Of a DNA stretch of 64,000 nucleotides, positions 9,309 to 63,804 are shown in pieces; position 1 is the stretch's first letter, and each line of letters starts with the position of its first letter. The DNA is from Deuterostichococcus epilithicus (lineage: Eukaryota > Chlorophyta > Trebouxiophyceae > Prasiolales > Stichococcaceae). A program made the translations under genes and the position numbers. The notes under the pieces were generated by a model that searched no databases, had not been told where the DNA came from, and worked only from the letters and a program-made list of their open reading frames with translations. The stretch lies in contig JAVTLE010000003.1 in assembly GCA_033439295.1 (NCBI GenBank), forward strand, positions 1,550,001 through 1,614,000, written 5' to 3'.

Positions 9309-12300
9309 ATGCGATCGGTGGCGCGCTTCGCCACATGGGCCATTTCCCTCCTGTGCTGTGCCCTGGCGGTGCTCGCAACAGCTGCTGCGCCTGAGGCGAC
9401 TGCGGAGACCCAGCCCTCGCAGCAGCAGCCCACGATATGCCTGGTTGTGCGGACGTACTGGGGTCACAGCGGCGACACTGCGCTGCAGCAGCGGCAGGGC
9501 CTGCGGCGGCTGCTCACGTCCTTACGGCAGCAGTCCAATCCCAAGTAAGGCATTTGCGCAGCGACTGGCACCGGAAAGTACACAAATTCGATCGGCCTGC
9601 ATGCTTCACTCGGCCTTTTCTGCCTGCTCTGTGTCATGGCCTCATGCCATGTTCCTTGGGCGGCTGATCACCACCTGCCGCGGGGTGCGCAGCTGGGAGG
9701 CGGTTCTGGTGGTGATGGACAGCGAGCCATTTCGGGACCTGCACTACATCCTGCAGGACCTGAATGACGACCGCATCTGGGTGTTTGCAGAATGGGTACG
9801 GCGGCCTGCGAGTTGCCCACATGTGACGATCTGGGACCGCTTTGCTCAGAGCAGCGGTAGCACGGAATGCGATGGCTTTGCACTTTTGGCTTGTTGTTGC
9901 TGTGGAGTGAGAATGTACATGGACTGACAATGCCACGTTCTGGCGCCATCAGGTCGGCAAGGATTACACGCCCAAGCAGCAGGGCCAGTGGACGGCGGGC
10001 TATCATGAAAAGCTGTACAACCTCACGGACGAGGCCATCAGAGGTGCTGCGCAGTGCCACGGCAACTGCTTCTGATGGCGGTCAAGAGCAGCGTGTGAGC
10101 ATGCTCTTCCAGCCTGGCTCGCTTGAAAGTCAGACCCGGTGACATGTCTCCCGCCTGTCCTGCTGCAGCCTGTCCCGCCAACACAGAGTGGGTGGTGGTC
10201 ACCAACGGCGACAACGACTATGCGAAGACGTTCTTCAGCCGGATCGGGGCTGTGAAGGATGCCGACCTTATCGCCTTCGACTTTTACAGCCGCTACCACC
10301 GCGCCACAGGTGCCAGCCATGTGCACGGGAAACTTCCAAAGAACGATCGTTGCTGTGCACGCGGTGTGATCGGACAGGCTCTGACTCGACTCACCTGAGC
10401 ACGACTGTGTGCTGGCGGCTGCAACGAAGCCACCGCACTGCCACTCAGGCATCATCCACCCTTGCGCCCCTTCGCACCGCAGGCGTGCCCTGCGAGCGGT
10501 TTGGGCAGCAGAAGGGTGCACCGACCTGCAAGCTGAACAAGCTGCGGTGGTGCCACACCGACCTGGGCGCCAACGCCATGCGCTGGCCGCGCCTGATGGC
10601 GGAAAACAGGCGCTTTGGCGCGCTCAATGCCCTGTGAGACTCTCATGGACAGCTGCAAAGTGCTTGTCTCCCGGACGGCTATTAGTGAGATGCTGCTCCG
10701 CCCGCTCAGGCGCATGCCTGCCTGCCTACTTGCTCGCATCCCAGCTCAGCGCAAAAGGGCTGCATTGCCATGCGACACTCCTGGATGCCAGCTTCTGCGA
10801 CGCTGCACCAGCAGGCAGCCTGTGCATGGCTTGCCCGCACTGCCCCCGGGCTCACCCGGGCCTGGTTCGATGTGCAGGACGAACGGTCTGGCGGCGGAGC
10901 ACTTTGATGGCATCATGGCTCAGGCGCTGGTGGCCGACTGGCCGGTGGAGCATGTGCACGACTGCCTGTACGACCACAGCCCGACGCCGCAGGTTTGAAT
11001 TTTAGGGTGTAGGGTTCGGCGCTCGACAATCTCGAAGGGGCGGTGTGGCCAGCTGAAGCCTGTACATCTTTGGCCGGTGCTGTGCAGGCGCCCTTGGTCG
11101 TTGACCTTTTCTGACAGCGCAACGGTCCCTGCGTGCACCTCGACTGTGCTTCAAGGGGTCCACCTTGTGGGCCGGCGGCCAATGCCACAAGACAGCATAG
11201 GGCTGCCGTTCTTTCGTCGTTATCGAAGCACCCGTGCACCTGCTGCATAACGCCACCAGCCGTGTGTTGCCGTGTGTCACTGCAGCGTCCCGACGCCCGC
11301 ACTGCCACACTGCACAGCGGTGCGCTCGGCTGGGCGGCATGTTGCGTGACGCCATCAGCTGCCGTCGCCGTGGCGCCCTGACGCCCGTGTCGCCATGTTT
11401 GGCAGCAGTGCACGAGGCTGGGCGGCGCGTCATGTGAGGCTGGGCGGCGCGTCACCAAAGAGGCCTGACGTCCTCGCTGCATTCCGTGTGCAGCGGTGCG
11501 CGCGGCTGGGCGGCGTGTGGGACGACTCCGACATGGCGCCGTCCAACATTGGCGGCCGCTGCCTCAACTCCTGGCAGGCCAGCAAGCGGCTGAAGGACGG
11601 GCGCGGCGGCGTGCAGGAGGTTGTGGTCAGCCTCGCCCACGACGCCCACCTCGCAGGTAGAATTTCCCAGAGGGTTGCATCAAACGATCAGATGTGTGCC
11701 AGGGCTGTGCAGGAGGTGGTAGTGAACCTCAGCCGCAACGCCATTCTGGCAGGTGCCGCCCAATAAGGGTTGTGGTGTCACAGCATGCGACAGAACTGAG
11801 GCTCGCCAGTTTCTCGCATAGGGGCTGCGATGGACTCTCTGTGGCTGTAGAGAGGATAGTGTGCAATTACCACTGAGCTGTCATGCCCACAGCTGAGGCG
11901 CAGGTGTGATCGAAGGGAGACGGTGGGGCCGCAGATCTTGCCTTGTGTGACAATACCCCCCAATCGTATGCAGGCTTCGAGGACGAGGGGGAGGCGGGTG
12001 CGACCGCGATGCGATGCCTGCGGCAGACGGATGCCACGCGGCAGCGGCACGAGCTGATGTCGTACTTTGGCGAGGCATGCTCCGATGACGTGGACCTGCC
12101 CGCCTTCCAGGACCCCGTCTACAAGAAGGCAATTGTGCCTTTCTGCCTATGGAAACCAGCTGACCGAGTGGGCATGCTCCGATAAAATGAACCTGCCCGC
12201 CACCCAGGTTCCCACCTACAACCAGGCAATTGCATGAAAGGCTCCCTTTCAGCCTGAAAGACAGCTTGGAAGGGCACGTGACTGAAACGGCGCAGTCTGA

Positions 12301-12760
12301 AACGCTGCATGATATGGGGTGGTGTGAGAGAGATTGGAGGCGATGAGGGAGAGGCATCGTGTACCGAGCACGTGGGGTTGCAGGAGAGTGTCTCCGGTGA
12401 CTTGCATATACTCTTCTGCGCTCTGGATCAGCTACATCTGTGCTTACTGACGGCAGGCCGCAGAGGAGATCAAGAGGCAGATCGAGGAGGAGGCTGCCGC
12501 GGCTGCTGCAGCAGCGAAAGCAGCAATGCCGCAGCCGCCCGGTCCGCCAAAGTAAGCCCGACTGCCGCTGCGCAGCGCTGTGTGCTCTTTGCCTGTGCAT
12601 GTTTGATGCCCTTGTGCTCCCGAGGAAAGTTTGCTGGGGGCGACGCCATCCCTCGCATGCAACAATGTCCAAGCAGACTGACGCACATACAGCGCCTTTG
12701 TGCAGGACCGACGACGCATCCGGCACGGCGGCCTTCAGGGAACTGGTCACCGCGTCGTGA
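9309..12760 (+). CDS. Secreted or Golgi glycosyltransferase-like protein
   Basis: The ATG at 9309 opens a clear signal peptide (hydrophobic run ISLLCCALAVLATAAA). The N-terminal domain begins PTICLVVRTYWGHSGD, followed by EAVLVVMDSEPFRDLHYILQ, QQGQWTAGYHEKLYNLTDEA and NTEWVVVTNGDNDYAKTFFS. The last contains a DxD-like metal/nucleotide-sugar motif (GDND) and precedes DADLIAFDFYSRYHRATG. Cys-rich parts follow (VPCERFGQQKGAPTCKLNKL, RWCHTDLGANAMRWPRL), then EHFDGIMAQALVADWPVEHV. After a repeat-rich intron region come VWDDSDMAPSNIGGRC, GFEDEGEAGATAMRC, an acidic coiled coil (EEIKRQIEEE) and the end FRELVTAS at 12760. The GT-A assignment is an inference from the signal peptide, fold-like start and GDND. 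I do not know a named family for it. Confidence 0.55.
11316..11520 (+). repeat. Four copies of an acceptor-proximal motif
   Basis: The core GCTGGGCGGC recurs at about 11329, 11418, 11439 and 11506. The first and last copies share the longer context CAGCGGTGCGC-CGGCTGGGCGG, which includes a TGCAG-type acceptor. The last copy is the genuine exon start (VWDDSDMAPSN follows). Confidence 0.75.
11611..11755 (+). repeat. Tandem duplicate of an exon end and donor (96-base period)
   Basis: 11611-11659 and 11707-11755 are related copies. Both start GTGCAGGAGGT and end at a CAGGT donor. They translate to QEVVVSLAHDAHLAG and QEVVVNLSRNAILAG. The period is a multiple of three, so the second copy could serve as an additional or alternative exon. 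Confidence 0.75.
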
Positions 12761-12972
12761 CGGGTGTTCTGTATGCTGGGGGAATCAGTGGAAAGATTTC
12801 CATTGCTTGCTGTCCGTTGTGCAGCTTGATTTGCGACACTTTGCGACACTCTAGATACACAAAACACGAGCATCTGCCGTATCTAAAGCTTTCTGCACAA
12901 TGGACTGCACTCACAGACGGAGTGATTTTGACAAGGAAGCGGCCGCTCCCACGATGCTATCCGATCGCTCAT

Positions 12973-13076
12973 GGTGCATCACCGACCACCGAGGCCTTCC
13001 CGAAGGCGCACGGCCGTGCTCGCAGCGGTGCATCACCGGCCACCACGGCCGAGACCTCCGAACGGGGCGCGGCCGC
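12973..13076. repeat. Imperfect tandem duplication (54-base period)
   Basis: Two copies begin GGTGCATCACCG at 12973 and 13027 and continue with related GC-rich sequence ending near CGGCC. The stop codon of the minus-strand gene lies at the boundary in the second copy. Confidence 0.6.
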
Positions 13077-14890: not shown

Positions 14891-15579
14891 TTTTGCAATG
14901 CGTCGAATCTGACTTCAGAGCTGCTGGATGCCGTGACTTGCTTGGGAGTACGACACCAGACCATGTGCTGCAGGGCGGGCAGAAGATGTCCCGCCAGGTT
15001 TTCCGCAGCTGCTTAACGTTCAATATTTGTTCAGTTCGCCGCAAAGGGTATTGGATACGGCTAGGCTTAACACAACAAAAGAAGGCAGCTACGAGTATAG
15101 CTGAGGCAGGGTCGGGCTGACCGGAGGTGGGGTGTGTGCGAAAAGGCGGGCCGCTGAAGACGTACCATCAGGGGGTTCAAGAGAGTCAAGCGAGTCAAAC
15201 TCAGTCAGGCGGCATGCTGTGCACCGAACGCCCTTCTTCGAGTATCAATCTCAAGTTTCTATATACTGTCAGAGCATAGCACGCTGGCAGCGAGGGTGCA
15301 GGCAGGGTCGTGAGGCATTAGCACGCAACGGCGTGGGTGACCAAGGTAGTGGAAGCTTGCAGTAGGGATCAGGTCGTGCGGCAGCTGGACTCGTAATTGT
15401 GACAGGAGCGCCCGCAAACGCCTTATCAGGCTCTGCGTACCGGGTGCACTTCGACTTGCAACTGAACCCGATGTCAATGGGTGCCGGTGGCGGTGGCGCC
15501 GCCAGGCTATTCACAGGCAACAAGAGCGCGGAGTACTGAAGTTTGTGGCAGTCTGTCAATGATGCACATCCGGCTGGCA
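14891..15579. other. Gap between two same-strand genes
   Basis: This interval holds the upstream end of the unidentified gene, possibly including a missed first exon, and the 3' flank of the dehydrogenase gene. No open frame here could be tied to a family. Confidence 0.4.
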
Positions 15580-23437: not shown

Positions 23438-24549
23438 TCACTCCAGGGTGGGGTCGCCCAGCGGCGCTGCCGGGTCTGGGCTGCTGGTTGCAGCCGTCGG
23501 CGCAGGCGCGGCAGCGGCAGCCGTTACTGCCATCGGCGCGCTGGAGGCTGCAAATGCTGGCGCCGCCGTCTGCAGCGAGGGGGGCATGAGATCTGGGCCG
23601 CAGCCAACAGTTGGCGCTGTGGCGGCTGGCAACAGACTGGGTCCAGCAGGCGTTCGGCTGCTGGGACCTACTGCACCATGCGGCAGCGGCAGCTGCACGG
23701 GAGCCGCCCATTGGGACTGCTGCGGCGCCACGGGGCGCGGAGGCGGCGCCGCTAGTGGCGGCAGCAAAGATGGCGGCAGCGGCAAAGGCGGCGGCGGGCG
23801 CGAAGCTGGGCCAGGGGGCGCCGGGGGCGGCGCTCGCGGCTCGAGGCCGCAAAATCTGCCTGGGTGGCGCTGGGGAGGTTCTGGCTCTGGCACCGGCTTG
23901 GCAATCGGGCGGTACGCCGCTTCATAGTAGGTCTGCTGCTGTTGCCGTTGCAAGCGCACACGGTGCAGCTTCGCATCATCCACGAACATGGGTCCATACT
24001 CGCGGCCCACCTTGGCGCCCTTGCCCAGGTGCAGGTTGGGGCACACCGTGTTAGCAGCCCCGCCGCCACGGGCTGCTGGCTGGGCGGACGGAACGGGCAG
24101 TGGCCAGGGGAGGCCGTCACTGCTGTTTTGGTTGCCGCCGCAGCCGCCATGGAGGTAGCAGCCATCTGGCATGGCTGACGACTCCCAGGGACTCTGCGAG
24201 GCATTGCAGTAGTCCTCGCCATTGTCGCCGGGTGCGGGCGCAGAGTGGGCTGGGGGATGCCGCATCTCCTGCGCCATCAGCATTCTGTTACGCTCCGCGG
24301 GCGGGAGGCGCTGAAAGTATGCCTGCAAAGACACCATTCGTGTTTCAAATCGGAGCGCAAAGCAATGATGGCGAGCTTGTCGTTCAAACGGCAAGCAAGA
24401 TGAGCATGCAGCACGGCCATCAGTCCGTTCACCTCATGGACATCATCCGGATCAGTGGGCGGACGCTTGAGTTTCTCCAGGATGGACGCCAGAGGCGCCG
24501 TGCAGCATGCGCGATCTCTCGTCTGCTGGCCGTAGGCTGACATGCTCAT
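23438..24549 (-). CDS. Proline-rich protein of unknown function
   Basis: Two exons were found. The first starts at the ATG at 24549 (MSMSAYGQQTRDRACC, then LASILEKLKRPPTDPDDVHE) and ends at a GAG|GTGAAC donor. The second begins AYFQRLPPAERNRMLMAQEM after a TTTGCAG acceptor (about 24325) and runs to the stop at 23438. Its middle contains the ordered motif YGPMFVDDAKLHRVRLQRQQ and TYYEAAYRPIAKPVPEPEPP. The last 120 residues are almost all Pro/Ala (RPPPPLPLPPSLLPPLAAPP). The N-terminus could be a short interaction domain; the tail is probably disordered and may bind SH3/WW/EVH1-type domains. No family was recognised. Confidence 0.65.
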
Positions 24550-25163: not shown

Positions 25164-28076
25164 ATGATAACGATCGTGGACGGTGAGTTTCTTGCGGACA
25201 TCCTTGTGATACCGCTTGCCGATATGCCTGGCGCTCCTATTTTTGGCACTGTGCAACCCTTGCTTCGCACGATAGCGCGCTACTTTGGAAGTGAACCTGG
25301 TCCAAGGAACATCAAACATCAATGCTGCAGGCAGTCAGCTGGAGGGTGGAGGGCAGATCCTGCGCAACGCTGCCGCGCTGGTGCGGATGAGTGTTGCGGA
25401 TGCCGCGCGATCATGCAAAGGACGAGCATTGAATGAAGCAAGCAGCCCCGTCCGTCCAACATGGTCATGAGGTTCACTCTGATTGCCTTTTTGCAGGCAG
25501 CGATCATGGGCGCACCCCTGTGCATCGAGAATTCTGTCCAACACGGTCATGAGGTTCAGTCTGATCGCCTTTGCGCAGGCAGCAATCACGGGCGCACCCC
25601 TGTGCATCGAAAACATCCGCGCTGGCAGGTCTAAGCCCGGGCTGCGGCCGCAGCACATGACGGGGCTGCGCCTGATCCGCGACTTGTGCGGCGGCGAGCT
25701 GCAGCAATGCGATGTCGGCGCGACGTCCGTGTCGCTGAGGCCTGGCACCCTGAGAGCGGGGCGATTCGTGGCAGACACAAAAACGGCTGGCAGCTGCATG
25801 CTCATGGTCCAGGTAGCATGTATGAAAAGAACAGCCAACGCAGTGTGTTTTCCAAAGCGCCAAGTGCATTCTGATGCGTGCGCCGCCACTCATGCTTCTG
25901 AGTCCTGCACAGGCTCACCTCACTGGATGCGTGCCACGACGCTGCGACCTCCGTGCAGGCGTCACTGCCGTGCGCTCTGCTGGCAAGCGGGCAGCTGGCG
26001 GCCTCAGCCGCCGGCGCTCACAGCAGCGGTGCTGCTGCTCACTTCACGACAGAGTTGGAGCTGCGGGGCGGAACGGATGCCGCCATGGCGCCGCCGTATG
26101 GCTACAGCCAGCAGGTGCTGCTGCCGACGCTGCGCTACCAGCTGGGCCTGCAGCTCGACATGACATGTCAGATGCACGGCTTCTTCCCAAAGGTGAGTGC
26201 AGAGTGGCATGAGTGAGAAGCGTTGCAGAGAGCCCGATTGACATCGTCCGCTTGACATCGTTCCTCCTGCCGGACTGACAGTCCCATCAGGGGTTCGGTT
26301 TTGTGAACGAAACATAACCCGAAAGTGTTCCTTGCCAGGGCGGGGGCATAGTGTCGCTTAGAGTGGCGGGCCTCTTGGCCGGCACATGCCTGCCGCCAGT
26401 GCGGCTGACTAATCGCGGTCAGGTCACATCTGTGTCCATCGAGGTGAGACCTACCATTGTTCTCACTGCCGGTTTCGTCTGCTGGTCGTCTGAGTAAGTT
26501 GGAGACATGAAAGATATGACCCATGCTTGCCGTTGTAGCGGTGTCCTGGTGAGGCATTCCGCCAGACACAGGCGCATCCACGGCATGGGTCTGCAGCAAA
26601 TGGCTGCCACAAGCAGCAGCACACTGTTCCACCATTCATTGTGCATTCGCGTGCCTTCCAGGCGATTGCCTGCGGCCGCATTGATGTGGCAGTGGCGGAG
26701 CGCATGGCCAGCGCGGCGAAGAAGGCCCTGACTAAGGTGGGGTCTGCTAGAGCACTGGCACCATCGCACTTGCAGTGGTTATATTTATCATGGCTGTCGC
26801 TGGAGACCTGCTTTGAGCAGCAATGCGTCAAGTACATATGACATGATGTGATGTGTTGTGATGTCCAGGGTGACCCAACGTTGCGCGAAGTGCCCATCGG
26901 CACAAACTACTCGCGGCCACAGGGCAAGGACACTGGCGGCAGCATCGTACTGGTCGCTGAAACAAACACTGGCTGCATCTTTGGCGCGTCAGGTGCCAAT
27001 CAAAGCCCCACCAAGCACTCTGCTTTCCATCTGCGCTTCGCCTCTAAATATATAACTCGTTCAGCAGTCAAACAACCAGCTCAACCATTTCCGTGCACCC
27101 TTTGCGTGCCTGCCCCCCAGCTCCCTTTGCGACCAGTCGTTGGGCTGCCACAGCATTGCCGGGGACTGTGAAGCACATGGCTTGCATGGCACCTGCGGGC
27201 CTGGCGGAGGATAGCATAGACAAGAAGCGGAGGTAATCTGGAGGTGGCGCAGCATACACTTGCGTGACTGCGGCCATGAGACACCCTTCAAATCTTCAAA
27301 CTGCAGGCCTGACGGAAAACGGCGGCAAGGCGGAGGTGTGAAATGCATTGCGGAAGAGGCGCTGCTGGCGTGCATCAGTGAATGATCAGTCTTAACCAAA
27401 AGCTTCGCACGGCACCCGCAGGCCTGGCCGAGAGGGGCGTCAGGGCGGAGGACGTGGGCCGCATCGCTGCCGAAGCGCTGCTGGACGCCCTCGCGGCCGG
27501 CGGCTGCGTCGACGAATGGCTGCAGGACCAGCTGATCGTGTTCATGGCGCTGGCGGAGGGCAGGTGTGCAGTCCTCAGCACCCGCTTGACGTGCGCCTGC
27601 TCTCGGTTTGCGATACTGCCTGAAGGGGATTTCTGCTCATGTGTTCATGTTGCTGGTAGAGTGCAGGTATGCAATTGTCAGCGAATGACCGACAGACGAC
27701 TGCTCTCGATGAGCGAGTCTCTCTGAACTCATAAGATTTGGTTTCTGCTCGTGGTTTGCATGGCGCTGCCGGAGTGCAAGCGTGCAGCACCAAGCTGTTG
27801 CTGAACAGGCGCCTATGGTTTGTCTTGATTGCGGACAGCTCTGATGCGAGCGCCTGTGTCCGGTCATTGCACAGTATCTGGGGTAGGAAGCTCAAAAGGG
27901 GATGTCGACACCTTGATTGCGGATGCAGGTCGCAGCTTTTGTGCGGGGAGCTGACGCTGCACACGCGGACGGCGATTGCGGTGGCACAGCAGCTGACAAC
28001 TGCAAAGTTTCGGGTGGAGCAAAGCGGCGAGCAGTATCTCGTCACCTGCGATGGTGCAGCATTGCCTGCGCGGTGA
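25164..28076 (+). CDS. RTCA: RNA 3'-terminal phosphate cyclase
   Basis: A tiny first exon, 25164-25182, encodes MITIVDG and splices at G|GTGAGT to 25331. This rebuilds the family start [20 protein letters not shown]. The next exon, entered near 25577, gives [40 protein letters not shown] and [10 protein letters not shown]. Later exons encode [40 protein letters not shown] and [20 protein letters not shown], then [60 protein letters not shown], and [20 protein letters not shown], ending at 28076. The enzyme converts RNA 3'-phosphate ends to 2',3'-cyclic phosphates via an adenylated His. The His in a terminal-domain position corresponding to HTRTAI fits, though it was not aligned. Length and domain order match full-length RtcA. 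Confidence 0.9.
25454..25611 (+). repeat. 82-base tandem duplication spanning an intron acceptor
   Basis: 25454-25529 and 25536-25611 are near-identical copies. Each starts GTCCAACA and contains a pyrimidine stretch, TTGCAG or TGCGCAG, and the first codons of the next exon (GGCGCACCCCTGTGCATCGA). The second copy leads into the real exon. Confidence 0.9.
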
Positions 28077-30519: not shown

Positions 30520-33500
30520 ATGGCCGGGGCGCGGCCTTCTGCGCTCGGCGACGTCATTGTGCCTGTCATCAACCGCCTCCAAGACATCTTTGCCCAGGTG
30601 AGGCAGACGGTGACGAATGTGCGCTACAACCTGTGCGTCCTGGGCATCGGGGATCGCCACACATGTTCCTTCCCTCGGGCCACGCAGGTGACAACCGACT
30701 TCAAACTTGAGCTGCCACAAGTGGCGGTGGTCGGCAGCCAAAGCAGCGGCAAGTCTAGCGTACTGGAGAGTCTGGTGCGTACGGCCTTTGGAATGGCAAC
30801 GACCTCCGCACGGAACAGTGCATCAACGACACCTGCAACGCGCCCAGGCGGCAAGCCTACTGGAGCTGTGACAGCGCTTTTCAATCCTGTCTCGGCTGTT
30901 GCCCCCAGGTGGGCCGCGACTTCCTGCCGCGCGGACCTGAAATCTGCACCCGGCGGCCGTTGGTGCTGCAGCTGGTGCGCCCCTTGCCATCGGCGGCTTC
31001 CTGGATGGTTTATGCATTATCGTGAGGCCTGATCTCAGCACCGAGGCCTATGCTGAGGTCAACCGCACTACGGGCAGGGCAAAGTAGCGTGCTGACATCC
31101 GAATTCGCAATCGGCCAATGCTGCAGGTCAAGTCGTCGCCGGGGCCAGGCGGCGCGCCGTCGCCAGAGTACGCAGAATTCCTGCACTGCCCCAGCAAACG
31201 CTTCTTCGACGACGAGCGCATCCGCGAGGAGATCCAGGGCGAGACGGACCGCCTGACGGGCACCAACAAGGGCATCTCCGACCGCCCGATCCGCCTCAAG
31301 ATCACCAGCCCCCATGTGCTGTAAGTCCTCCTCTACCCTCCTGACCTGCTGGCCGCCCCTATCAGCCTCAACGTCGCCAGGTTCCCTGTGCTGTCAGTCC
31401 CCTTCACCCCTTAGTGGAAGTCGGCCTCAATCAGCAAAGCCCTGCGTGACCGGCGGCCACAAGGAACCCTGCCTCAGTTGCACTGGTCTCCCACCCCTGC
31501 GGTGGCGCAGGACGATGACGCTGGTGGACCTGCCGGGCCTGTCCAAGGTCCCCGTCGGCGACCAGCCGAGCGACATCGAGGCGCGCACCCGCGCCATGAT
31601 CCTGGACTACATCAAGCACGATACCTGCATCGTGCTGGCGGTGTCGCCCGCCAACGCCGACATCGTCAACTCGGACGCGCTGGAGCTGGCGCGCAGCGTC
31701 GACCCCAACGGCCATCGCACCATCGGTGAGCCCTTTCATAAGCGGGCCCGGCATAGGTTTTCAGGAGCGCCAACGCCGGAAACCCGCAGCATTTCAGATG
31801 TTCAGCCGCGGATGTTCATATTTCCTCGAGTCGGTGTCCTGCGGCCGGGGTTGCACGGATTGTGTGAGGCGCATTCAACACGGGTGCACGGTTGAACCCT
31901 CTAATACAACACCTTGAACATCAACATAGGCCTGCTGACTGTGGGCAGGCGTGCTGACCAAGCTGGACATCATGGACCGGGGCACCGACGCGAGCGCGGT
32001 GCTGCGCAACGAGTCGGTGCCGCTGCGCCTCGGCTACATTGGCGTCGTCAATCGCTCGCAGCACGACCTGAACACGGGGCGCGGCATGGCGGACGCGCGC
32101 GCCGCGGAGGCCGACTTCTTCGCCTCCATGCCCGAGTATGCCGATGTGAGAAGGTCGCAAAGGCTCCCGCGAAAGTCCAGCCCATAGATATCCTGACTGC
32201 GTCGGCCTCCGCGACTTCTTCGCCTCCATGCCCGAGTGTGCCGACGTGAGCAACAGCTGTGCTCGCCACCCCGCCGTGTGCATGCCACGGCTGGAGGCCG
32301 CGCCACGAGGTTGCAGCCTTGCCCCAAGGTCCCCTTTCCCCCTTCGCGACACACACTCATGGGCGAAGGCAGGGCCTTCAGTGCCATGCACGACCTCGGC
32401 ATCATACACCCTTCCTCACATGGCATGGGGTCAGTGGCAGGGCGTCTGACCGGCAACTCGCCTTGGCTCGCTGTGTCCGCAGGTGAAGGGGCAGACGGGC
32501 ATCGGCGCGCTGGCGCTGCGGCTGAACCACATCCTGGTGGAGCACATCCGGGCGCTGCTGCCCAGCCTGCGGGCCCACCTGGAGGAGGCTGCAGAGCGCC
32601 GTGCCAAAGACTTGAAAGTCTATGGCGCCATGCCGCCCGGCAGCACCTCCGCCGCCAGGTGCGTCTCATATGAATTTCACTGTTGATGTAGGGATTCTGG
32701 CACTCCTTCGGTGAAATTGGACCTCAAAAGGCCACGGCGCCATGCCGCGCGGCAGCACCTCAGCCGCCACGTGGCGTTGTGACCCTGATTCACCGTGCCG
32801 TGGGGCAGGGCTTTGGGGACGTCGAGTCTGCTTGACGCTATGCTTAGTGGCACTTCCGCCGCCAGGTGGCCGCCGGTCGTGACCCACTGCAAATAGTATT
32901 CTTCTCACCTTTCATTTTGTGGGACCAAGTGCGTCAGGGATGTCGAGCCCTGCAAGGCGCTGCGCAGCGGCACTGTGGCGCGAGGGCTGCAATGCCTTTG
33001 TGGCATGCCGTGCACCACCCCGAGCTCCTCTGAGCACCATTTGACATCATCACCTGGTGAGCGATGAGCTCATCGCTCGCGAACTCTTCAACACGTGCAG
33101 GGGCGCGCTGCTGCTGCAGCTGCTGGACAGCTACGCGACGCGGTACGCGGAGATGCTGGATGGCCGGTCCGAGGCGCTGCCGGTGAGTGAGCTCGCCGGC
33201 GGCGCGCGCATCCGCCACATCTACCAGGACATTTTCGTCAAGGGCCTCGAGGAGCTCAACCCCTCTAGGTAGGCCTGCTGTCTTGTTTCCTGCGTGCTCG
33301 TCCGCTCTCGGAGCCCACCTTGCAAGATGTGTGGGTGTATGTCAGCTCTGGACGGCTTGACTATGGGCTGCTCGAGCGAGCACTCCTTGTGTGTGTTTGT
33401 GTCGTCTCGAGAATGAGCACATCCATGTCGCACCCCTGTCGCAGCGAGCTCACGGACGAGGACGTGCGGACGGCCATCAAGAACAGCGGCGGCGTCAAGG

Positions 33501-40800: not shown

Positions 40801-41877
40801 CGAGCTGATGCAGTAGTAAGCAAACACCGTGCACCAGCTGCTGGACCCGAGCTACTTCACTTGCAGCCATTCAACTCCAGGCCAAGTGAATTAGCTATCG
40901 CATCCGAGGCCACGGTCCGGCTAGGGGTCGCAAGGCGCGTCTCCAGCCGGCACGCTGTTACCCGCTCCAACCCATTGTGTCACATGGTGTGACTCGAACT
41001 TCTCCACGTGGCAGGCGAGGAGCCGGTGCGGGACGTGCTGCACGCGGCGTACCGCCTCATCAGCAACCACGAGGCGGTCGTGAAGTTCAGCCTGCGGGGC
41101 CCCGGCACGCCCGGGCAGCCGCCGGTGTCGGCGCCGTTGGCGGACCCAAACGCGCTGGCGGCCACCCAGTACCATGACGCCGCCGACGCGGGTGGGCAGA
41201 GTGTTTCGTTCAAAACGACAAGGCCCTCCACTCTATCACAGGCGTGGCAACATGCACACATGCAAGCATCGAAACTGCCTCTCTCTGGTGGCTACCTGGT
41301 CCACGACGCTGCCGACCCAAGTGAGCAGCACAGCCTTTTGTGTCATCTCGAGACATGGCTGTGGCTTTGTCTCTGGAATTGTTGCCCCGCACAGTCAGTC
41401 GGTCGGCGATTGCACTTCGCAGGCCTGCGGCATGTGGCGCACGCGCTGCTGCTGGGGCCGGATGCCAAGCAGGCCGGCGGGCAGCCGCTGCGGGTGTCTG
41501 CCAGCCGGCCAGACGGGGCACCTTCCTTTGATGCCGGCGCCGTGCAGCTGGCGACAGGTCAGTAACGAAGAAACACTCCTTGGGGCACGGCTTCACGATT
41601 CTGTTGTGGTGCCCTGCTTTGGGGCTGCGCTCTGGCCCAACCCGTTGTCCCGATGACACCATGCAGGGACTGCACGGCTACTTCGTTCTTTCATACCACC
41701 CACACAGCATGCGCGTGACGAGTTTGGCCTGTGCATTGCGCGGCTCAGCGCAGATGTTTGTGCTCTGCCGCAGGATACCTGCGGGCACGGGTGGGTGTGC
41801 CGCGGGACCTGACGCTGCCCGCCGCCCGCCAGCTGCGCGCACACTGCAGCTGGCTGATCGATAGCCTTGACGGTTAG
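37837..41877 (+). CDS. Transit-peptide-bearing glutathione S-transferase-like protein
   Basis: The ATG at 37837 opens an Arg/Ser/His/Ala leader ([36 protein letters not shown]) consistent with plastid targeting; 37945 is an internal ATG. Next come [34 protein letters not shown] and [17 protein letters not shown] thioredoxin-fold GST N-domain follows, with the redox motif [20 protein letters not shown], then the cis-Pro/ESD region [20 protein letters not shown]. The helical C-domain includes [40 protein letters not shown] and [20 protein letters not shown]. An extra C-terminal region of about 250 residues ([40 protein letters not shown]) ends at 41877. The CPYC pair suggests glutaredoxin-like or dehydroascorbate-reductase-like chemistry. 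This is inference; the extension is beyond the usual GST length. Confidence 0.78.
41169..41328 (+). repeat. Duplicate exon end and donor in the GST-like gene
   Basis: 41169-41199 (GTACCATGACGCCGCCGACG then GGTGGGCAG) and 41299-41328 (GTCCACGACGCTGCCGACCC then AAGTGAGCAG) are related, with a period of about 130. They would translate as HDAAD followed by a donor in both cases. Identity is moderate (roughly three quarters). Confidence 0.6.
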
Positions 41878-42128: not shown

Positions 42129-45100
42129 CTAACAGATGACGGAGTCCAATTCGTAGCGACAGCTCTGCCCCTCCTTCAGCGGTATGCGCTCATGCGGCGC
42201 CTCTGACGCATCCACAATGAGATGAACCCGCGCCACGGTGCTGTTGTTGTCCACCTGTCAATAATGTGATCCGAGTCACAGCTAGATGTCACCATTGCGA
42301 CGGCTATGCAAGACGGTATGGCACTTGCCAAAAGCGAGTCTGGCTGGCAGAATGCATTGGGCCAACCTTGTGGACGGTCAGTGGCTGACTGCCCTTGACT
42401 GGGCCCTTAACCACAGAGGAAGCCATGGCGTGCAGAGAAGAGCGTGTCAGCCACCTTGTGCGGCAGGTTGTTGTTGAGTTCAAACACCCGCCCCTCCTCC
42501 AGCGCCACGGGCCAGCAGTTGTCTGGTCCCACTTTGGCGCCAGCGGCGTCGCCATGTCGAGAGAGGCTTGCCCTGCTGTGTCCCAGCTTGCCGCCCTCAG
42601 GGCACACCTGCGGGCGAAGGGTGTAATTTCAGGCGTGCGCTTGTGCAGAGCACGAGACAACATCTATCTTCTCATGCTGCTCACTCCTCGGTCGCACCTT
42701 ATGTCGAACCGGTACAACTGTAGGCAAGATCATCTCATGGTGGGCCAAGTGCAGCACCACACCATTTCAGGAACCCTTTCCGTCAATGCGCACCGCAAAG
42801 CCGACGCCAGGCGCAACGGTCACGGGGATGTGGATGCGGTGCGAGCCGGATGCCCACTTCCCCATGTCCGTGTGCGGCCTTATGCGGATGCCCGGCCGCA
42901 TGCGTGCAATCTGCATGCGGATGATCTTCGGCAGATCCGCCTCACCCAGCACCTGCGGCGGTCGGGCAGCCTGAAGCCTGAGTCGCAGCCGCGCGCAAAA
43001 CCTCATGTGTTGCATTTGGTATGATGAACATTGTGGCCCACTGACCCGGCAGTCCACGGGCGAGTGTCACGGGCGAGTTCGTGAAGCTCAAGCATCGTGC
43101 CACAGTCTCTGTCGGCAGTTTAAAGCTGCAACGACATCCCAGCCTGCGCGCCTGCTGTAGCAGCGGCTCCAGGACCGCAGCAAAGCGGCGGTACCAGGGG
43201 AACGCGTACACGTTTTCTGCCGCCCGGTCGGAGAACAGCAAAATGATGGTCTCGACGCCCGGCTTGAACTTCTGCATGTTGCCCAGGCGGCCATCGAAAA
43301 ATGCGTTGGTGCGCCGCTGCTCCTCCTCGTGCCAAATCGCCTCCCCCTCAGCTGCCAGCGCGTCCTGGGACCACAACAGATGGAGTTGTGAACAACCCCT
43401 CGGCTGCCAGCGCGGCCTGGGGGCAAGACAAATAACCTGCGGTAACGCCGCAGAGTTGCCTGCAGCAGACCTTTTTTAGCGGCCCAGTGTTTCTGAGCTG
43501 TGGCACAGGCCGGGGTGGTGGAAATGATTCAGCAGAATTGCACCTCCCTTACATCAGGCCCGGCCGAGCGGAGGCCATCGCTCTGTTCAGGCATGCGCTC
43601 TCACAGGATCTCCACAGGTGCAAAGCCACAAACGCACCCCGGCTGTTCGTGACATTGAACGGACCTGCAGCGGCTTGACGTCCACCTTGAGGAGGTTCAG
43701 CTGGATGCCTGCTCTGAGCGGCTGCTGGCGTTTCATGCCTGCGTTTATGAAGGGCTGCCCGCTGGCCCATTTGCCACCTAGCACCGCCGGGAACTGCGGT
43801 GGCAGAAGATGGGCAGCTGAATTAGTTTTCGGTTTCGAGGCGTGGATGGTGAGCAGATTTTCCTTTGGGTGGCCCCTCCTGCCTGCCGAGGCAGCACACA
43901 GGTGGCCCATCCGTTCACAGCCAGCAGCTGTGGCCAGAAGGGCGACATTTCACCTACCTCTGCCAGCGTCCTGGCTGCAGTCCGGCGTCCACTGGCGCCC
44001 CCCGCCACTCCGCTGCCGGCCTGCTGCACGCCACCTGCTCCCGCCACCGAAACCTGGCATGTCATGATTGTTGGGTTTGGTGTGTGCAACAGGTGTCAGA
44101 TAAATTTTGAACAAGGCACCTGTGGGACTCCAGTATGACTACAAGTTGCGAAACAATGACCAGTGATCGCACACACACAGCTGCTGAGGCGTCTGTAGCG
44201 CACAGGCGGAGGAAATTGCACCAGGTCCTTCTTTGGGCGCAGAAGGCCCGGCTCCAGTGCCCGGTATGTTGACGCAATGGCGAGGTGCGGCGCCGCCACC
44301 ACGTTCAGTAGGCCGTGCGTCGGCACCTGAACGGAAAGTGAGCTTGTTGGTGGCTTGTGGAGACGCGAGACTTGCGGGCCTAAACCCGACTCCTGACAGC
44401 AGAAGCTTGCCCTTGCACGGAGACTGCTGGTGGTAGTGTGAGCAGCGCATCGAGGGTTGCACTTCAGCTCTGAGGGATTTGGGTCCCCGAAAGCTTAGGA
44501 GCTCACCTCTCGCCGCCACAGCAGCGTCTTGCCGCGTAGGCAGAACGCCGCCAGCTGGCTGTCGTGCGCCAGATCGCCGCGGGCGGCCCGGGTGCTCCAC
44601 ACCGACACGCCGAAGAATGCGATGTCGTCGATGACGGACAACCCCTTCAGGAACTTTCCGCGTTCTGGCACCTGTCAGGGCCATATTTGTTCTGATCACT
44701 CATCTGTTGGGGTTCAAAGGGGTGTGGAGCATACGATCGACCAGAGCACTTCGAGTGACCACAGCCACATGTTTCACTCTGCCTCGAATTGTGGTTCATG
44801 AGAAAGAGTGCAGACGGGATTGGGCGTCACGCACAGCCGAGCGCCATGACAGCATCACAGCCAAAGCAAATGGCTCTGAACCTCAGCGGCATCTGCCGCC
44901 AGCAGATGCTCGCCTTCCACAGCGCCGTCTCGAAGCCGTCGCATGGGCTTTACAGCTCATAGCCGGGCTATTATGCCTCAGCCACTTGCCTGATACAGCG
45001 TCGTGTGGGAGCCGTTGCGCGGGCTGACGCGCAGCAGCCCGCCGTTTTGCGAGTCCAGCACCAGCAGCGAGCCGCGCCAGGCGACGATGGCGTGCGCCTT

Positions 45101-51400: not shown

Positions 51401-54259
51401 CAAGCATGCAAGCGGTGCTAGGTTGCAGCAGTACCAATCTATGCTGCAATCAGCGCTGGCTCAGCTGCATGTGGGCAGCCGGGCTCGACCGTCATCTGAG
51501 CGCCAGCAATGGTTTACTGGAAGCCCGCAACACTCGTGCGGCAACAGCCCCTGCTCACTTGTCCAAGAGGTTCAGCTCCGGCAGCAGGCTGTGCAGCTTT
51601 GCCAGGTCTGCCACGATTAGCTCGAGGGCGGCCGCAATGCGCCCAGAGCCCCAGTCGCCATGCTCCGCCGACGCCGCCTCGTCCGCCTCCGTGATGGTTG
51701 CGGCTGCACGGTGCCGGGGAAACCTTCACGACTTCAAAATTTCGTTGTCTCTGTTGCTGCATTGCATTCCATTGTTTGTGTCGCTGGTTTGGAACAGAAG
51801 CTTGGCTTGGCAGCAAATGGTGCGAGGGTGCACACAGGCTGTGTGGTGCGCCGCAGCACTGTGAGGTATGCCCCAGCACAGTGCGATGGCGCACCTGCCG
51901 CCTGGGCGGATGCTGCTGCCACCGCCGCCAGTATCTTCTTGACGATGTTCTGGTAGTCGCCAAGCACCTCACGGCACACCTACGTGTAGACAGTCAATGA
52001 GACTTCGGCTCGTTTGAGCTTGATCTGAGGGTGGAATCAACTGGCCGCTGCGGTGTTTTTTAAATGGCCAGATACGCTCACGGGTGCAGCATTAAAATGC
52101 ACCACTGTGTTTGCAAAACAACACAGTGCGGTGTGTGCACACCCTGATAAGCGCCGGTCGCGCACTGCGCTCAAATAGCTCGGCGAACAACTCGGTGTTG
52201 CGGACCAGCTCGGGGAAAAACTGCTGCTGCAGGCTCCTCAGGGCCTGGTCCGCCGCCTCAACGGCACCTGCGGGCCATGGGAACGTATTGCTGTGCTGTG
52301 CTGCAGAGAGCCTGAAACATGTGTTGCAGAGGAAGCTTCGTTGCAACACCAACAGTAAAGTGATCCAGATGCTGCAAACCACAATCGGCTACCGAGGCTC
52401 CTACATGATACACACAATAAAAGAGTGTGAGAGTCGACCTGCACCTGCATCGCCGGTGCGCTCCGGCAGCTCGCTGGCGACGCCGAACGTTGTCCGCACG
52501 CTGGCCTTCATGGCCCGCAAGAACTCGTCCTGCCGCAAACATCGATTGTGCAAATTGACTTTGCAGCAGATGCATTGTTACTTGCAGCGCAAGATCTTCA
52601 CAGCAGGCCAAGCCGCTAGAAGGCATCATCAAACCGTGTCAGCTACGATCAGGGCGCTCTTTTGACTTGCCTGGAGGTCGGCGACCGGGCCGCCGAGGCG
52701 GCGCATGAGGCCGATGCACTCGACAGCGTCGGCAGCCTGCGCCATGACCCGCTCCTTGAGCAGCGCCGTCAGCTCCTTTATGAGCACCTCCACTTCCGCT
52801 GCCACCCGCCGCAGCGTGCCCTGCGCAGACAGCAACGAGCTGAGGTCTCTGGCAGCTATGTTCACACTACTTGACAGTCCTGACGATGGCGATTCACGGG
52901 AACGAACCTCTGCACTGCTGCAATACGGCTTCATGGCAGCGGGCGGCCGCAAGCGGACAGGGCCAGAGACCATAAACCGATGCAAACTGACATAACATGC
53001 TCTATACATAGCTCGCACCTTGTAGCCGGCGCGTTTGAGCACGGGGCGCGCCCCGATGTAGGCGTCCACCGCCAGCGTGTACGCTTTCGCGGCGATGGCG
53101 ACCCGCAGCCGCGCTGGCAGCTGGAACACCGCCTCCAGCTTTGACAAGAGTGCCTGCACCTCGTTCAGGTCGGACACCTGCGACTGCCGCGCCGCCAGCT
53201 TCGCCTTGACAGCCTCCCGGCACCGCTCAATCTCCTCTGCATGCGCAATCAACGCAGATCGGTTGATTATGTCTTGTTTTGTGCGCCACCCTGCCGCGCA
53301 GCCAGCTTCGCCATGACCGCCTCCCAGCACCGCTCAGTTACGTTTTCCTCAACGCGCAGCAGGGTCAGGCCTGGTGATCATTGGTGTCTTTCCAGGCATC
53401 AACGGAGCTGGTCGGGTCCAGCTAATGCTAACGCCCTGCTACTTATCCTCTATCTCGACAAAATGACGCGGTGCAAATGGGATTGGGCTTTGATGAATCT
53501 CTTGAAGCTTCCCTTTCTGCGACGTGTACAGCTGCCCATTGCCACATGCAACATCATTGCAGCTTTGACACGCACCTGAGGTGTCGTGCAGCTGTGTCAT
53601 GGAGGGGCTGGCGGCATCGATGTTGGATTTGAGGTCACGGATCGTGTCGGTGGCGGTAATGAAGCGGTTATAGTTTTCGTACACCAGGCGCTGCATGTCG
53701 GCGTCCAGGCTTTTGATGTCGCCCGACATGGTGGTAGAGGAGGCCAGGAGCTTGTCTAGCCGCGCATCCCGCAGCAGCGCCGCCAGGTACCTGCGCAATC
53801 AAGAGAATGTTCAATGCAGCGCTGTGGTGGTCACTGGTCCCAAGCGGCGATCAGTGTCCGTGTGCTTGATGTCCCGGACTTGCGTGCAGGCAAGGAGGAC
53901 GCCAAAGCATACACAAACCATGATGTGCAGCGGCTCGGTTGGTGAATGCCTGCATGTGCTGTCGACATCTGGCTGCCTTCGGCACACGGTGAAACGTGTC
54001 AATATGCAATCTGGGACAGAGACGAATGGCACCTGTCGACGCTGAATTCGCTGGAGTCCAGATCGGTCAGTGCCGCAGACGCAGTCGGCTCTGGTGCCCG
54101 ATGCGGCGCCGGCCGCTGCTGCTGCATGCTGCCCAGCGAGTCTGGCTCCGCGCCGTCCTCGCCAGCGTCGCCATAGTAGTTACTCAGCAGCGCCTTCACG
54201 CGCGCGGCCTTCTCGTCATCGCTGTGGCCGGGCCGGCCGCTCCCATTTGGCGGCGCCAT
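48494..54259 (-). CDS. VPS51: VPS51 subunit of the GARP/EARP tethering complex
   Basis: The ATG at 54259 gives MAPPNGSGRPGHSDDEKAAR then VKALLSNYYGD, the usual VPS51 opening. The next exon (about 53790-53610) carries the signature YLAALLRDARLDKLLASSTT, SLDADMQRLVYENYNRFITA and TDTIRDLKSNIDAAS. Coiled-coil and CATCHR-like helical exons follow: EEIERCREAVKAKLAARQSQ, VQALLSKLEAVFQLPARLRV, EVEVLIKELTALLKERVMAQ, EFLRAMKASVRTTFGVASEL, LRSLQQQFFPELVRNTELFA, CREVLGDYQNIVKKILAAVA, AALELIVADLAKLHSLLPEL, FVELLQSSLQRLLVSLVQLM and EVLATAKAEVTALLGGL. The last exon, YLASYAAAPTFGLLDKVLIT ... SVIESMMQA, stops at 48494. VPS51 holds VPS52/53/54 together and binds SNAREs for endosome-to-Golgi tethering. Length and order fit a full-length protein of about 15 exons. 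Confidence 0.88.
53187..53339 (-). repeat. 107-base-period duplicate of an exon start in VPS51
   Basis: 53187-53232 (exon, minus strand, coding ERCREAVKAKLAARQ) recurs at 53294-53339 in the upstream intron (ERCWEAVMAKLAARQ) with roughly seven differences over 46 bases. Confidence 0.88.
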
Positions 54260-56551: not shown

Positions 56552-56625
56552 AATACCATTGCAGTGCAATTTGCGTTGCTGTACAATAAATGATCCGCCT
56601 ATCCAAACGAATTGTCGTATGGGTC

Positions 56626-60503: not shown

Positions 60504-60687
60504 GCGGGGACTGTGGCATGACACGCATTTGGTCTCTGTGGGTATAAAATACCGATTGGGAATGAAATCAGTTCGGCCTCCTTCATCATACCTACCTAAA
60601 GGTGCAGCCACCCATCTGAGTGGATACCTCTGACCACACCCAAACGGCACATGCCACGCTGCCTGTCTGATGCCCCAGCAATCAAAT

Positions 60688-63600
60688 TCAGCCTGGATGT
60701 CTGTGCTGCTGCGTCTGGCAGAACCAAGTGTAGTATTCTGCGGCAAACGCTTCCAGCTGGTAATAGCGCACCAGCAGCTCGGGGCTGAGCGCAATACCCT
60801 GCTGCTCGTGCGCTGCACCCCTGGCTTCTGCCGCACGCGCTTCTGCTGATGGCCCTGGCGGCTGCGGCGCCGGATTGTAGGCTGGCTGCCAGCCAGCGCA
60901 GGCATCCGGCACTGCAGCAGCGAAGGCATCTGGCTCTGCAGCAGCTTGACTCTCGCCTGCTGAAAGCGCCGCATTTTGTGCCGGCGCCGACCGCGCATTT
61001 GTTTCTGCCTGCTGCGCACCCGGTGCCGCAGGCTGGCTGGGCCAGCTGCCATGCAGTGGCGGCGGCGGCGGCGCCCACAGCGATGTGCCCAGGATGGCTG
61101 CCGCCACATTGCTGTGCGACTGGTGGCCGCCGGATGCTGCCGCCATTGCTGAGGTGCTGGCGGCCTGGTTGTTCGAGGCCACCTCTTGGCGGGCGTCATT
61201 GCCATCAAAGCCGGCACTGACCTCGCTGTAAGCCTCCTCGGCATGATAGGCATCCTCTTCGCCATCAGTTTCCTCGTCGAAGTCTCCCTCATTGCCGAAA
61301 GCCGAGTCAGCATCGCTCCCCAGGGAGCTGTTGCCGCGGGTCCACACCGGCTGCGCCGTCGCGGCTGCTGCGCGGCCCCAGTGGCCGCTGGCAGGCTGGC
61401 TTCTGTAATGGGATGCCGCCGCGGTCTCAGAGCCAGCCTGCTGATCTGCAGTGTGTAACACTCTCAAGTTCAGCACCCTAAGTGATTGCCATCGTACACA
61501 TGTCGAGACCCAGCTCGTCCACTCTGTGAGGCACAGCCTAGAAGGCGAGGGCAGGCGACTGGCTGAGCGTATGACCGCCACTACTATTAATCGTCTCCAT
61601 GTTCTGTCTGCGGACTCGGATGGCGATCTGCTCACCGCTCGAGGCGCAATGCTGCTGCCAGGGCGCAGGCGCAGCGGCGCCCACCGCCTTGCCGCCCGCA
61701 TGGCTGGCGTACAGCTCCTCGGGTAAGGTGTCTGGGAGCGGCTCCATCTGCAGGAGTTGACAGCTGACGGCTCGACAATGACGTTCAATTATGTGTATGA
61801 AACCCTTCTCGGTGTCATGGGTGATGGCTGCCGCCATCCCACAGCGGCTGCAACTGTCCTGGGCGATGAGGAGCGAAGAGCCTTCTACCCGTCACACTCA
61901 CCAGCAGGTCCCCAGCCGCACAGCAATGCATCAGGGGAGCTACCCCGTGTGCACCCTGTGTTGGCCAGGGACAGCAGCTCTCAATGTAGCATGGCATGCA
62001 TCAGCTATTCAGCCAGCAGCGATCAGAACCATCTTCCAGCAGCAGTAACCAGCAGGACAGACAGCTGCCCGCCTGGCCGCCGGCAGCGTCCTGCAGGAAG
62101 CCATGCAGGTGGCGCAGCTCCCCATCGTTGGGACAATGCGTCAGCAGCAAAGTTGATTCATCTAGCAGCAACATCCACACCAGTTTTGGGCATTACTACT
62201 CACCTGGCCACCGGCGACGTCCTGAAGAAAGCCGCGCAGGCGGGCCAGCTCTGAAGGCATGGCGAACGCAATTGCCACGCCATGCGTGCCGAAGCGCCCG
62301 GTGCGGCCGACGCGGTGCATGTAGGTCGCCGCATCATAGGGCAAGTCCAGGTTCGCCACCTGTGTCATGTTTTGCCACCCATTGGCTTTTACTCAAGGCT
62401 GTTTCGCTCCAGTGTCACAGCAACTGACACGCGGTTTGGATCATGGCCAGGTGGTTCGGGCCCTGCCATCGCAATGCCGCCACTAGAGCGCCGTGCAACC
62501 TACGAGCGCGGATGGGCAAGGGCACACCAGATTGACGTTGGCCATGTCCAGGCCGCGGGAGGCGAGGTCTGTGGCCACGATGACGCGCACCCGGAAGTCG
62601 TGCACCGCCGCTATGGTGTCCATGCGGTCCACCTGCGCTGCACGACAAGGTGATTGCATTACGTTCATCCCTGCACCTGACTTGCAGCGTCCCATCAGAA
62701 GCCAGCCTGGACCATGAACAGCGCCAGGGGACGCATTCGGACGATGCCAGGAGCGCTGACAGCGACGCTCCAGTAAACATGCTTTGCTCCACAGGCCACG
62801 CACCTGAAAGAACCCCAAAGGTACTGCAGGCAAATGCTTCACGGCCTCGTGGCAGTCATTGCGCACCTGGGCGTGGGCGCCAGACACAAAGGCAGAGGGG
62901 TAGCCGAGCGCGCACAGGCGGTCCGCCAGCTCCTGCCCCTCGGGTTGCCCATTGTAAAACACAAGTGCCTGCGACCAGTGTGACCAGTGTTCCCAGATGT
63001 TCGGCTCCAAAACCGCATGAGTGCTGATGGGTCGTTGGCCATTCGCATTTGGAGCAGCAGCTGTCTGCTGAGGTCATGACTCGACAGCGAAGCAGCAGGG
63101 ACATTGAGTGGGCAGGATCGCAGACAGAGCAGATCATGGGCGGTCTCACAGAACGCGGCGATGCGGCGGCCCCACCTGGTGGAATGTCGTCGTGGACAGC
63201 ACCCGCAGCAGCTGCTGCACCTTCGCCTCCAGCAGCTGTTCAGGACCCAGCTCATCTGCTCATCAGGCGCCCCAGACTTGTCAGGCGCGTCGCCAGGATT
63301 TTAAACGCATCGTCTGCCACAGCACACAGCGGCAGACGCCACAGCTGCATCGCTGACCATGTGCTGTATCTGCCCCGGCATGCCTCAACCATGTGAGTCC
63401 TGCGTCCCGTCCTATCAGGCGCAGCTGCGCACACAAATTAGGCTCAAAACCCTAGAGCTTGGCAGGGATGCCCTTGTGTGGCTCACCCAGCAGCTTTCCA
63501 CAAAAACATGGCTGGTGCCCAGCACCGGAACCCCAAACCCCAACAGCCTGGCAGGCGCCCTGTGCGATTCACCTGGCAGCTTCCCGAAGAATGTGCTTCA

Positions 63601-63804
63601 CCTGACAACTCCACGGAGAACGCGACTCACCCGGGAGCTCCACGAAGAACTGGCTGACGCCCAGCAGCGACACCGACTCCGGGCACAGCATGACGTGGTG
63701 CGGCTGGACCATGAGCCCGTCCAGCTCCGCCAGTAATGCCGGAGAGTAGGTCGCCGACAGCGCCAGCACCTGCTTCCGCGCCGGCAGTACCTCCTTCGCC
63801 ACAT
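60688..63804 (-). CDS. DEAD-box helicase, DDX20/Gemin3-like (5' end outside window)
   Basis: Only the second half is in the window. From the 5' side: [20 protein letters not shown] (motif III, SAT), [70 protein letters not shown], then the RecA2 domain: [47 protein letters not shown] (motif V), [24 protein letters not shown] (motif VI) and [16 protein letters not shown]. After it comes [20 protein letters not shown], which resembles the segment after the core in DDX20. The last exon is a Pro/Ala/acidic tail ([20 protein letters not shown]) ending at 60688 with [20 protein letters not shown]. Motifs I and II lie beyond 64000. The DDX20 assignment rests on [10 protein letters not shown] and [10 protein letters not shown]; other DEAD-box subfamilies remain possible. 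Confidence 0.75.
62072..62251 (-). repeat. 131-base-period duplicate of an exon end in the helicase gene
   Basis: 62203-62251 (exon end, coding [16 protein letters not shown], followed by a GTGAGTAG donor) recurs at 62072-62120 in the downstream intron ([16 protein letters not shown]). About 40 of 49 bases match. The intronic copy has GCGGGC at the donor position. Confidence 0.88.
63483..63656 (-). repeat. About 29-base minisatellite of an exon-donor junction in the helicase gene
   Basis: Diverged copies start at TCACC near 63483, 63569, 63598 and 63627. On the minus strand each reads as an exon end (for example FFVELPG) followed by GGTGA/GGTGAGT. The 63627 copy is the genuine junction. Spacing is 29, 29 and about 86 (three units) bases. 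Confidence 0.7.

Follow-up and report, generated by a model that had tools for sequence, protein, structure and literature searches.

Exon-edge copies inside introns of the green alga Deuterostichococcus epilithicus

What makes introns grow, and by which units they do so, is for the most part unexplained. The question is raised by a 64,000-nucleotide stretch of the D. epilithicus genome (contig C3:1550001-1614000, here called the window), in which an earlier note had reported that the end of an exon and its splice site are found again in the adjacent intron. Do such repeats belong to the splice junctions, and what have they done to the introns that hold them? Direct repeats are present in all ten intervals (10/10) named in that note. 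Their recurrence across unrelated genes, on donor and acceptor sides, also holds in a sample of 344 kb, where 64 of 730 predicted introns carry a strong copy of one of their own exon edges (donor 35, acceptor 33, both 4). Growth of the introns seems to have proceeded at exon-intron junctions, by about 100 bases at a time.

The assembly comprises 46.8 Mb in 21 contigs, and the sample amounts to 0.7% of this one genome. It consists of four stretches on contigs that are 1.6-2.6 Mb long: the window, 200 kb of contig 1 (c1) and 40 kb each of contig 10 and contig 15 (c15). The window was selected because of the repeat finding; the other three stretches were selected independently of it. The window comes from the nuclear genome of a trebouxiophyte green alga, an assignment made because the top match of its dynamin, the best among 120 matches listed, is Coccomyxa subellipsoidea (72% identical). 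The gene finder was a simple ab initio model trained on the window and the 200 kb of contig 1, with DNA alone as gene evidence. In these two stretches it gave 594 introns with a median of 217 nucleotides (nt), and the predicted splice consensus is CAG|GTGMG at donors and YGCAG|G at acceptors. About 11% of the predicted donors in these 264 kb have GC instead of GT. Predicted junctions match homologous proteins in dynamin (three junctions with copies) and RTCA (solved RTCA) and, outside the window, in a solanesyl/geranyl diphosphate synthase and a TBC protein; all other junction positions are those of the gene model.

Recurrence of exon edges in their own introns

In the edge test a 40-mer of an exon edge was searched in its own intron, and model and threshold were frozen before contigs 10 and 15 were analyzed. 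In the window and contig 1, to which the counts of this paragraph refer, the 40 nt that end an exon have a copy in their own intron in 25/586 cases and the 40 nt that begin the next exon in 20/586, against 0 and 1 when the same 40-mers are compared with random introns. Intron 40-mers just inside the junctions gave 2/507 and 2/507 (null 0 and 0), mid-intron 40-mers 1/339, exon sequence 40-80 nt from the edge 0/442 and 2/444 (null 1 and 1), and exon sequence 80-120 nt from the edge 0/300 and 0/302. The edges matched the next intron in 1/546 cases and the previous intron in 0/546. Inverted edge copies were considered and discarded (0/586 on either side, null 1 and 0). Ungapped local repeats with a score of at least 16 comprised 56 direct, 5 inverted, 0 mirror and 0 complement pairs; therefore the repeats exceed chance.

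At the frozen threshold contig 15 has copies at 8/62 and 5/62 edges. When the samples are pooled, exon edges recur in 59/1440 cases, adjacent intron sequence in 6/1262 (P = 7e-11) and exon interiors in 6/1092 (P = 2e-9), so that this self-alignment of exon edges against flanking introns, proposed earlier and run with its controls on the 344 kb, finds exon edges about ninefold more often than adjacent intron sequence. This agrees with the suggestion of a mechanism biased to junctions, as does the non-uniform placement of the copies described below. The accompanying argument, that random duplication should hit intron interiors more often, is weak; for events of about 105 nt in introns of about 210 nt, junction-spanning placements are about as common as interior ones. 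The bias is shown instead by a comparison at matched spacing. A tiling search inside the introns of the window and contig 1 yielded 21 intron-intron pairs at a score of at least 16, but at a spacing of 80-170 nt and a score of at least 20 there were none outside the edge-copy introns, against 30 edge pairs. Because of this difference, a junction bias that goes beyond tolerance of junction-spanning copies is supported. Tolerance through an intact splice site, which had been offered as the alternative to targeting, stands as part of the explanation, in that the outer site is intact, but the bias exceeds it.

Anatomy, decay and intron length

The copies have a characteristic geometry. Medians for the 56 of 78 cases that are well anchored are 107 nt for the spacing (quartiles 93-123; 112 at donors and 105 at acceptors), 44 nt for the reach into the exon (37-56) and 61 nt for the spacer (49-70). 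In the averaged profile, which covers 39/67 cases, ungapped identity on the donor side is about 0.8 in the junction-adjacent exon, drops at +2 to +8 and is then 0.23-0.32 (random 0.26). For acceptors the values are 0.74-0.79 at -4 to -1, 0.44-0.50 at -10 to -5 and 0.30-0.41 beyond. This fall in identity past the junction on both sides is what would be expected if only the exon edge and the splice motif were copied and inserted together with a new spacer of about 60 nt, for instance by staggered-break repair, at an R-loop end or through RNA templating at the junction. Moreover, exon reach and spacer length each vary little and show no correlation (rho -0.12, whereas -0.55 is expected under uniform placement of a fixed-period duplication). 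Such junction-bounded copying is a possible explanation, only a little less probable than the reading preferred below, between which and it we cannot decide; we know of no enzyme with this specificity.

The placement also bears on the simplest alternative, plain random tandem duplication that is tolerated at junctions and followed by ordinary neutral decay. The exon half would then remain visible because two lineages drift neutrally in the intron and one in the exon. This would account for the longer visibility of junction-spanning copies, for full tandem cases such as the one in RTCA and for spacings without frame bias. However, among the 45 of 59 cases in which the exon is at least as long as the spacing (59 of 78 being anchored), the exon share has a median of 0.40 versus 0.58 under uniform placement (Kolmogorov-Smirnov P = 4e-8). 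Together with the flank results given below, this makes plain duplication an unlikely account. Spacings divisible by three number 15/56, which is chance (P = 0.32 against one third). The emphasis that the earlier note laid on periods that are mostly not multiples of three thus falls away, and in-frame alternative exon ends were rejected, since multiples of three are not in excess.

Intron length increases with copy number. At score 15 the median is 214 nt without a copy (634 introns), 338 nt with one (58), 428 nt with two (15) and 722 nt with three (1), and the slope is +113 +/- 12 nt per copy (+102 +/- 11 at score 14); the regression used 708/730 introns, those of <60 or >1000 nt being left out. 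This bears out the claim that the copies lengthen introns; the claim that they seed decoy splice sites is supported as well. Copy-bearing introns have a median of 364.5 nt versus 207.5 nt, and of 237 nt after the spacing is subtracted. When copies are called at an empirical P < 0.01 on either side, for which about 2% is expected by chance, their share is 3/102 for introns of 60-130 nt, 18/345 for 130-260 nt, 18/124 for 260-330 nt, 48/132 (36%) for 330-800 nt and 3/17 for those longer still. Where several copies lie on the same side, 12/13 steps are within 86-131 nt and one is 401 nt. Genome-wide extrapolation would lead to the order of ten thousand copies, a rough figure because the samples differ strongly. 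A substantial share of the longer introns therefore bears a visible and datable mark of lengthening, for which the exon serves as conserved reference. The steps of intron growth and the way in which the spliceosome handles a near-perfect decoy about 100 nt away become directly testable.

The copies look like exact self-copies of their own exon that then decayed without constraint, whereas changes in the real exon fell mainly on third positions. Copy-exon identity at codon positions 1/2/3 is 0.81/0.83/0.74, and in the ten youngest copies (identity of at least 0.88) the divergence is 0.08/0.12/0.10. A mosaic from a diverged homologue, which predicts mainly synonymous differences, was rejected on these last values. 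Clustered, error-prone copying was also rejected, mismatches being only slightly clustered (129 vs 119.9 +/- 5.4 at lag 1; 126 vs 113.6 +/- 5.6 at lag 3). The splice dinucleotide is kept in 13/20 donor and 11/18 acceptor copies, so that GT/GC or AG was lost in 14/38 (39/67 matches were considered, one donor copy not being scorable). As the copies are about 80% identical, this retention is close to the neutral expectation. Selection for a role as competing splice sites or regulatory pseudo-exons is then very unlikely to be what maintains the copies. They are exon-like enough to mislead the gene finder and one gene has them in 11/19 introns, but the loss of their splice dinucleotides keeps roughly to the neutral expectation, divergence at codon positions 1 and 2 is unconstrained and no in-frame spacing is preferred.

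The outer splice site is intact. In dynamin, RTCA, the polyprenyl synthase and the TBC protein, homology at the protein level runs without a break across the outer junction, and the outer site is presumably the one used in RNA. An assembly or haplotype-merge artefact could be suspected from a spacing near short-read length and from the clustering of copies by gene. It is extremely unlikely in view of copies that are 3-30% diverged, decay like non-coding DNA and have lost splice sites, unlike a second functional allele. The sampled contigs are also megabases long, and copies occur on both splice sides in the window and are present in all three other samples, sparsely in one.

For annotation the copies are a hazard, since they can pass for exons. 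At window positions 11359-11752 and 62073-62090 and at c1:22134-22137, the ab initio finder predicts exons or micro-exons that consist of parts of the copies. Intron gain was considered for short predicted introns that end in an edge copy (c1:22137, c1:113879 and window position 62090); we read these as gene-model errors caused by the decoys.

Cases in the window

Besides the ten intervals named earlier, the window holds seven more cases, one of them weak. On the plus strand, a gene that had been called glycosyltransferase-like carries three copies of an acceptor with the exon start in 88-nt steps (11315-11353, 11403-11441 and 11491-11529), and an exon end with GT recurs at a spacing of 96 nt (11611-11658 and 11707-11754). 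In both (11316-11520 and 11611-11755) the gene model puts splice sites inside the repeats, and the copy in use is ambiguous. A Pfam search with a 283-aa stretch of this putative glycosyltransferase-like gene at the 11315-11529 locus gave no match. A new case follows at 12074-12128, a donor-side exon edge that is copied with 7 intron nt to 12171-12232 (spacing 97). In the RTCA gene the acceptor lies in a full 82-nt tandem duplication (25451-25613) in which both the intron part (46 nt) and the exon part (35 nt) are kept, and the junction is confirmed by comparison with solved RTCA. A donor edge of the same gene (27538-27787, exon end 27563), absent from the earlier list, has copies 103 and 216 nt off.

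The dynamin gene, also on the plus strand, has three donor edges with copies at confirmed junctions. The first, at 31285-31411 (exon end 31320, copy 72 nt off), is new. The second, at 32112-32150 (exon end 32145), is copied to 32212-32250 at a spacing of 100 nt, and the third, at 32615-32868 (exon end 32658), has copies 112 and 207 nt off. Three further plus-strand cases are additions: an acceptor edge with an upstream copy at 35048-35193 (exon start 35161, spacing 104), a donor edge with a copy about 60 nt off at 36351-36433 (exon end 36398), and the weak case, an acceptor edge with an upstream copy at 39198-39328 (exon start 39311, spacing 105, empirical P 0.008). In the gene described earlier as GST-like, the donor edge 41155-41191 is copied to 41284-41320 (plus strand, spacing 129).

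On the minus strand, a hydroxylase-like gene (Pfam Asp_Arg_Hydrox) has an acceptor edge and copy at 43344-43421 (spacing 52), and the donor edge 44990-45025 is copied to 44914-44949 (spacing 76), the last of the additions. The VPS51 gene (Pfam VPS51_Exo84_N) has an acceptor-side exon edge and copy at 53184-53336, 91% identical at a spacing of 107 nt. The donor edge 62204-62251 is copied to 62073-62120 (spacing 131) in a gene that we take to be a helicase from its motifs and from the earlier description. At 63483-63656 a donor edge forms a 29-nt array (63568-63650) with a further copy 144 nt from the junction. This array fits head-to-tail units of short period and is atypical of the class. Other repeats were seen on contig 1. 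The introns c1:161857-163786, 170925-171214, 23654-24043 and 11526-12043 contain tandem repeats of 42-64 nt, distinct from the edge class of about 105 nt, and a duplication with a spacing of 78 nt, a multiple of three, lies within predicted coding sequence at c1:25753-25870 (40 nt at 95%).

Possible origins and comparison with known systems

The mechanism should account for what became of the intron half, which a tandem duplication would copy along with the exon edge. In a banded flank test of 52 of the 56 cases, in-register homology of the intron halves was found at P <= 0.01 in 9/52, versus 44/52 in simulated neutral decay with an assumed indel:substitution ratio of 0.15; about 0.5 would be expected by chance. 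As a general description, the term tandem duplication used in the earlier note is therefore not tenable. Among the ten youngest copies three reach a flank P <= 0.05, and in the unbanded test the one in RTCA alone is plainly intact; c15:8669 is clear when banded. Both results count against plain random duplication. Yet at least some cases arose by tandem duplication, because nine is well above the chance expectation, two cases are complete and, within arrays, 4/11 neighbouring spacer pairs are related (z of at least 2.6). Likeness over the whole period, intron part included, is absent from the class but present in single members such as RTCA and c1:155822-156221, and the 29-nt array is a full-period tandem as well. 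In the remaining cases the intron half was removed or never copied.

The reading that we prefer, to which we give a probability of only about 0.38, assumes removal. Junction-centred local duplications of about 105 nt, which take in about 44 nt of exon and 61 nt of intron, would recur in this alga and would be tolerated because the outer splice site stays intact. Each event would lengthen the intron by about 105-110 nt and leave a copy of the exon edge, decoy splice site included, to decay neutrally. The events would start as tandem duplications whose intron half vanishes far faster than point mutation allows. Short-tract gene conversion, with the selected exon as template, may re-homogenize the exon-derived block alone and leave the neutral intron halves to drift beyond recognition. 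A tandem origin of the majority, the gene conversion and a cause that centres the events on junctions are what we infer to explain the observed pattern.

Several results weigh against this preferred reading. Gene conversion was not observed, and re-homogenization should favour large exon parts, which are scarce (exon share >0.6 in 4/45). The low number of homologous flanks is difficult for it as well; when the flanks were aligned unbanded and with looser gaps, 8/52 reached P <= 0.01, not all alignments being in register, and the dynamin case 32112-32250, with copies 95% identical over 39 nt and unrelated flanks, is the clearest case against plain tandem duplication. In multi-copy introns the junction-nearest copy outscores the farthest in 8/12 arrays, which leans to stepwise insertion over re-homogenization. 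Contig 10 has copies at 1/72 donors and 0/72 acceptors at the frozen threshold (3/73 introns by a looser rule), and 4/6 exon-internal matches come from contig 15, where copies run longer. When the query joined 20 + 20 nt over the spliced junction, it matched in 16/586 cases, which we read as query halves matching edge copies. The gene models are ab initio and without RNA support, and the clustering by gene described below is not significant in the window and contig 1 alone (P = 0.52).

The order within arrays speaks for insertion of a junction-bounded copy, as do the missing intron-intron pairs outside the edge-copy introns. The spacers point in the same direction. The 42 spacers are mutually unrelated (all-against-all, best score 12.0 vs 11.5 in shuffles), so that no shared element was found among them, and the four searched in the whole assembly (32151-32212, 32662-32726 and two on contig 1) gave self-matches only. 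The related spacer pairs and the nine homologous flanks, on the other hand, indicate a tandem origin for some cases, and when spacers are compared with the flanking 800 nt, 5/42 exceed the 99th percentile of the null on one side and 2/42 on the other. Two sources were rejected. Filler from organelle DNA does not agree with the self-matches of the four spacers, as the assembly includes the organelle genomes, with COX1 on one contig (mitochondrial) and Photo_RC genes on another (plastid). Copying from spliced mRNA is contradicted by the GT and AG motifs of the copies, which mRNA lacks. On contig C20, COX1 was matched in three pieces, two with in-frame stops, which suggests organellar introns or an unusual code.

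A bolder form of the insertion hypothesis, which we consider rather doubtful, is that copying coupled to splice junctions (through R-loops, spliceosome-bound RNA or junction-specific breaks) inserts exon edge, splice motif and new spacer in steps of about 107 nt, makes many of the long introns of this alga and sometimes sweeps most introns of a gene. Clustering by gene over all samples exceeds 3000/3000 shuffles. An LMBR1-like gene on contig 15 has copies in 11/19 introns and may have been struck in one burst, and its short-chain dehydrogenase neighbour has them in 3/7; the five other contig 15 genes with at least four introns (32 introns) have none. By empirical P < 0.01, 12/15 middle introns of the LMBR1-like gene (808-816 kb) carry an edge copy, mostly one-sided and with identities of 0.69-0.91.

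Searches of open-licence full texts turned up no class of events in which existing introns become longer and the exon edge alone is kept, although this does not prove that none has been described. Junction-spanning duplications are known singly and as a model of intron gain (PMC3443670), whereas a genome-wide intron-lengthening class was not met there. Like introners, the events in the alga are a genome-wide process that changes intron content, but they share no element, given the unrelated spacers. For Daphnia, PMC3443670 describes introns gained where staggered double-strand breaks were repaired, with direct repeats on either side. Most alga cases resemble this in having direct repeats around unrelated filler. 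They differ in that the repeats are about 50 nt, lie at existing junctions and do not bound the intron, and in that events untied to junctions, expected from staggered breaks, did not appear as intron-interior pairs of the same spacing, against the 30 edge pairs.

The earlier note had also drawn a link to the origin of introns by duplication of AGGT sites (Rogers-type intron gain). Duplicated splice motifs near exon ends are common to both, but in the alga the copies lie wholly inside longer introns, and none of those examined has the donor in one copy and the acceptor in the other. Introns bounded by repeats with AGGT in each were not seen; once the spacing is subtracted, an intron of normal length is left, and in no examined case does the intron equal one repeat, so that the link does not hold. 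A single case is known from potato RdRp, in which a tandem duplication extends over an intron-exon boundary (Ma et al. 2016, PMC4974935). As in the alga, a splice junction lies within the duplicated block and a second splice site results. According to that report, a single duplication with ten differences between the copies made a new intron there. In the alga, by comparison, existing introns grow, in dozens of cases and with the intron half mostly beyond recognition.

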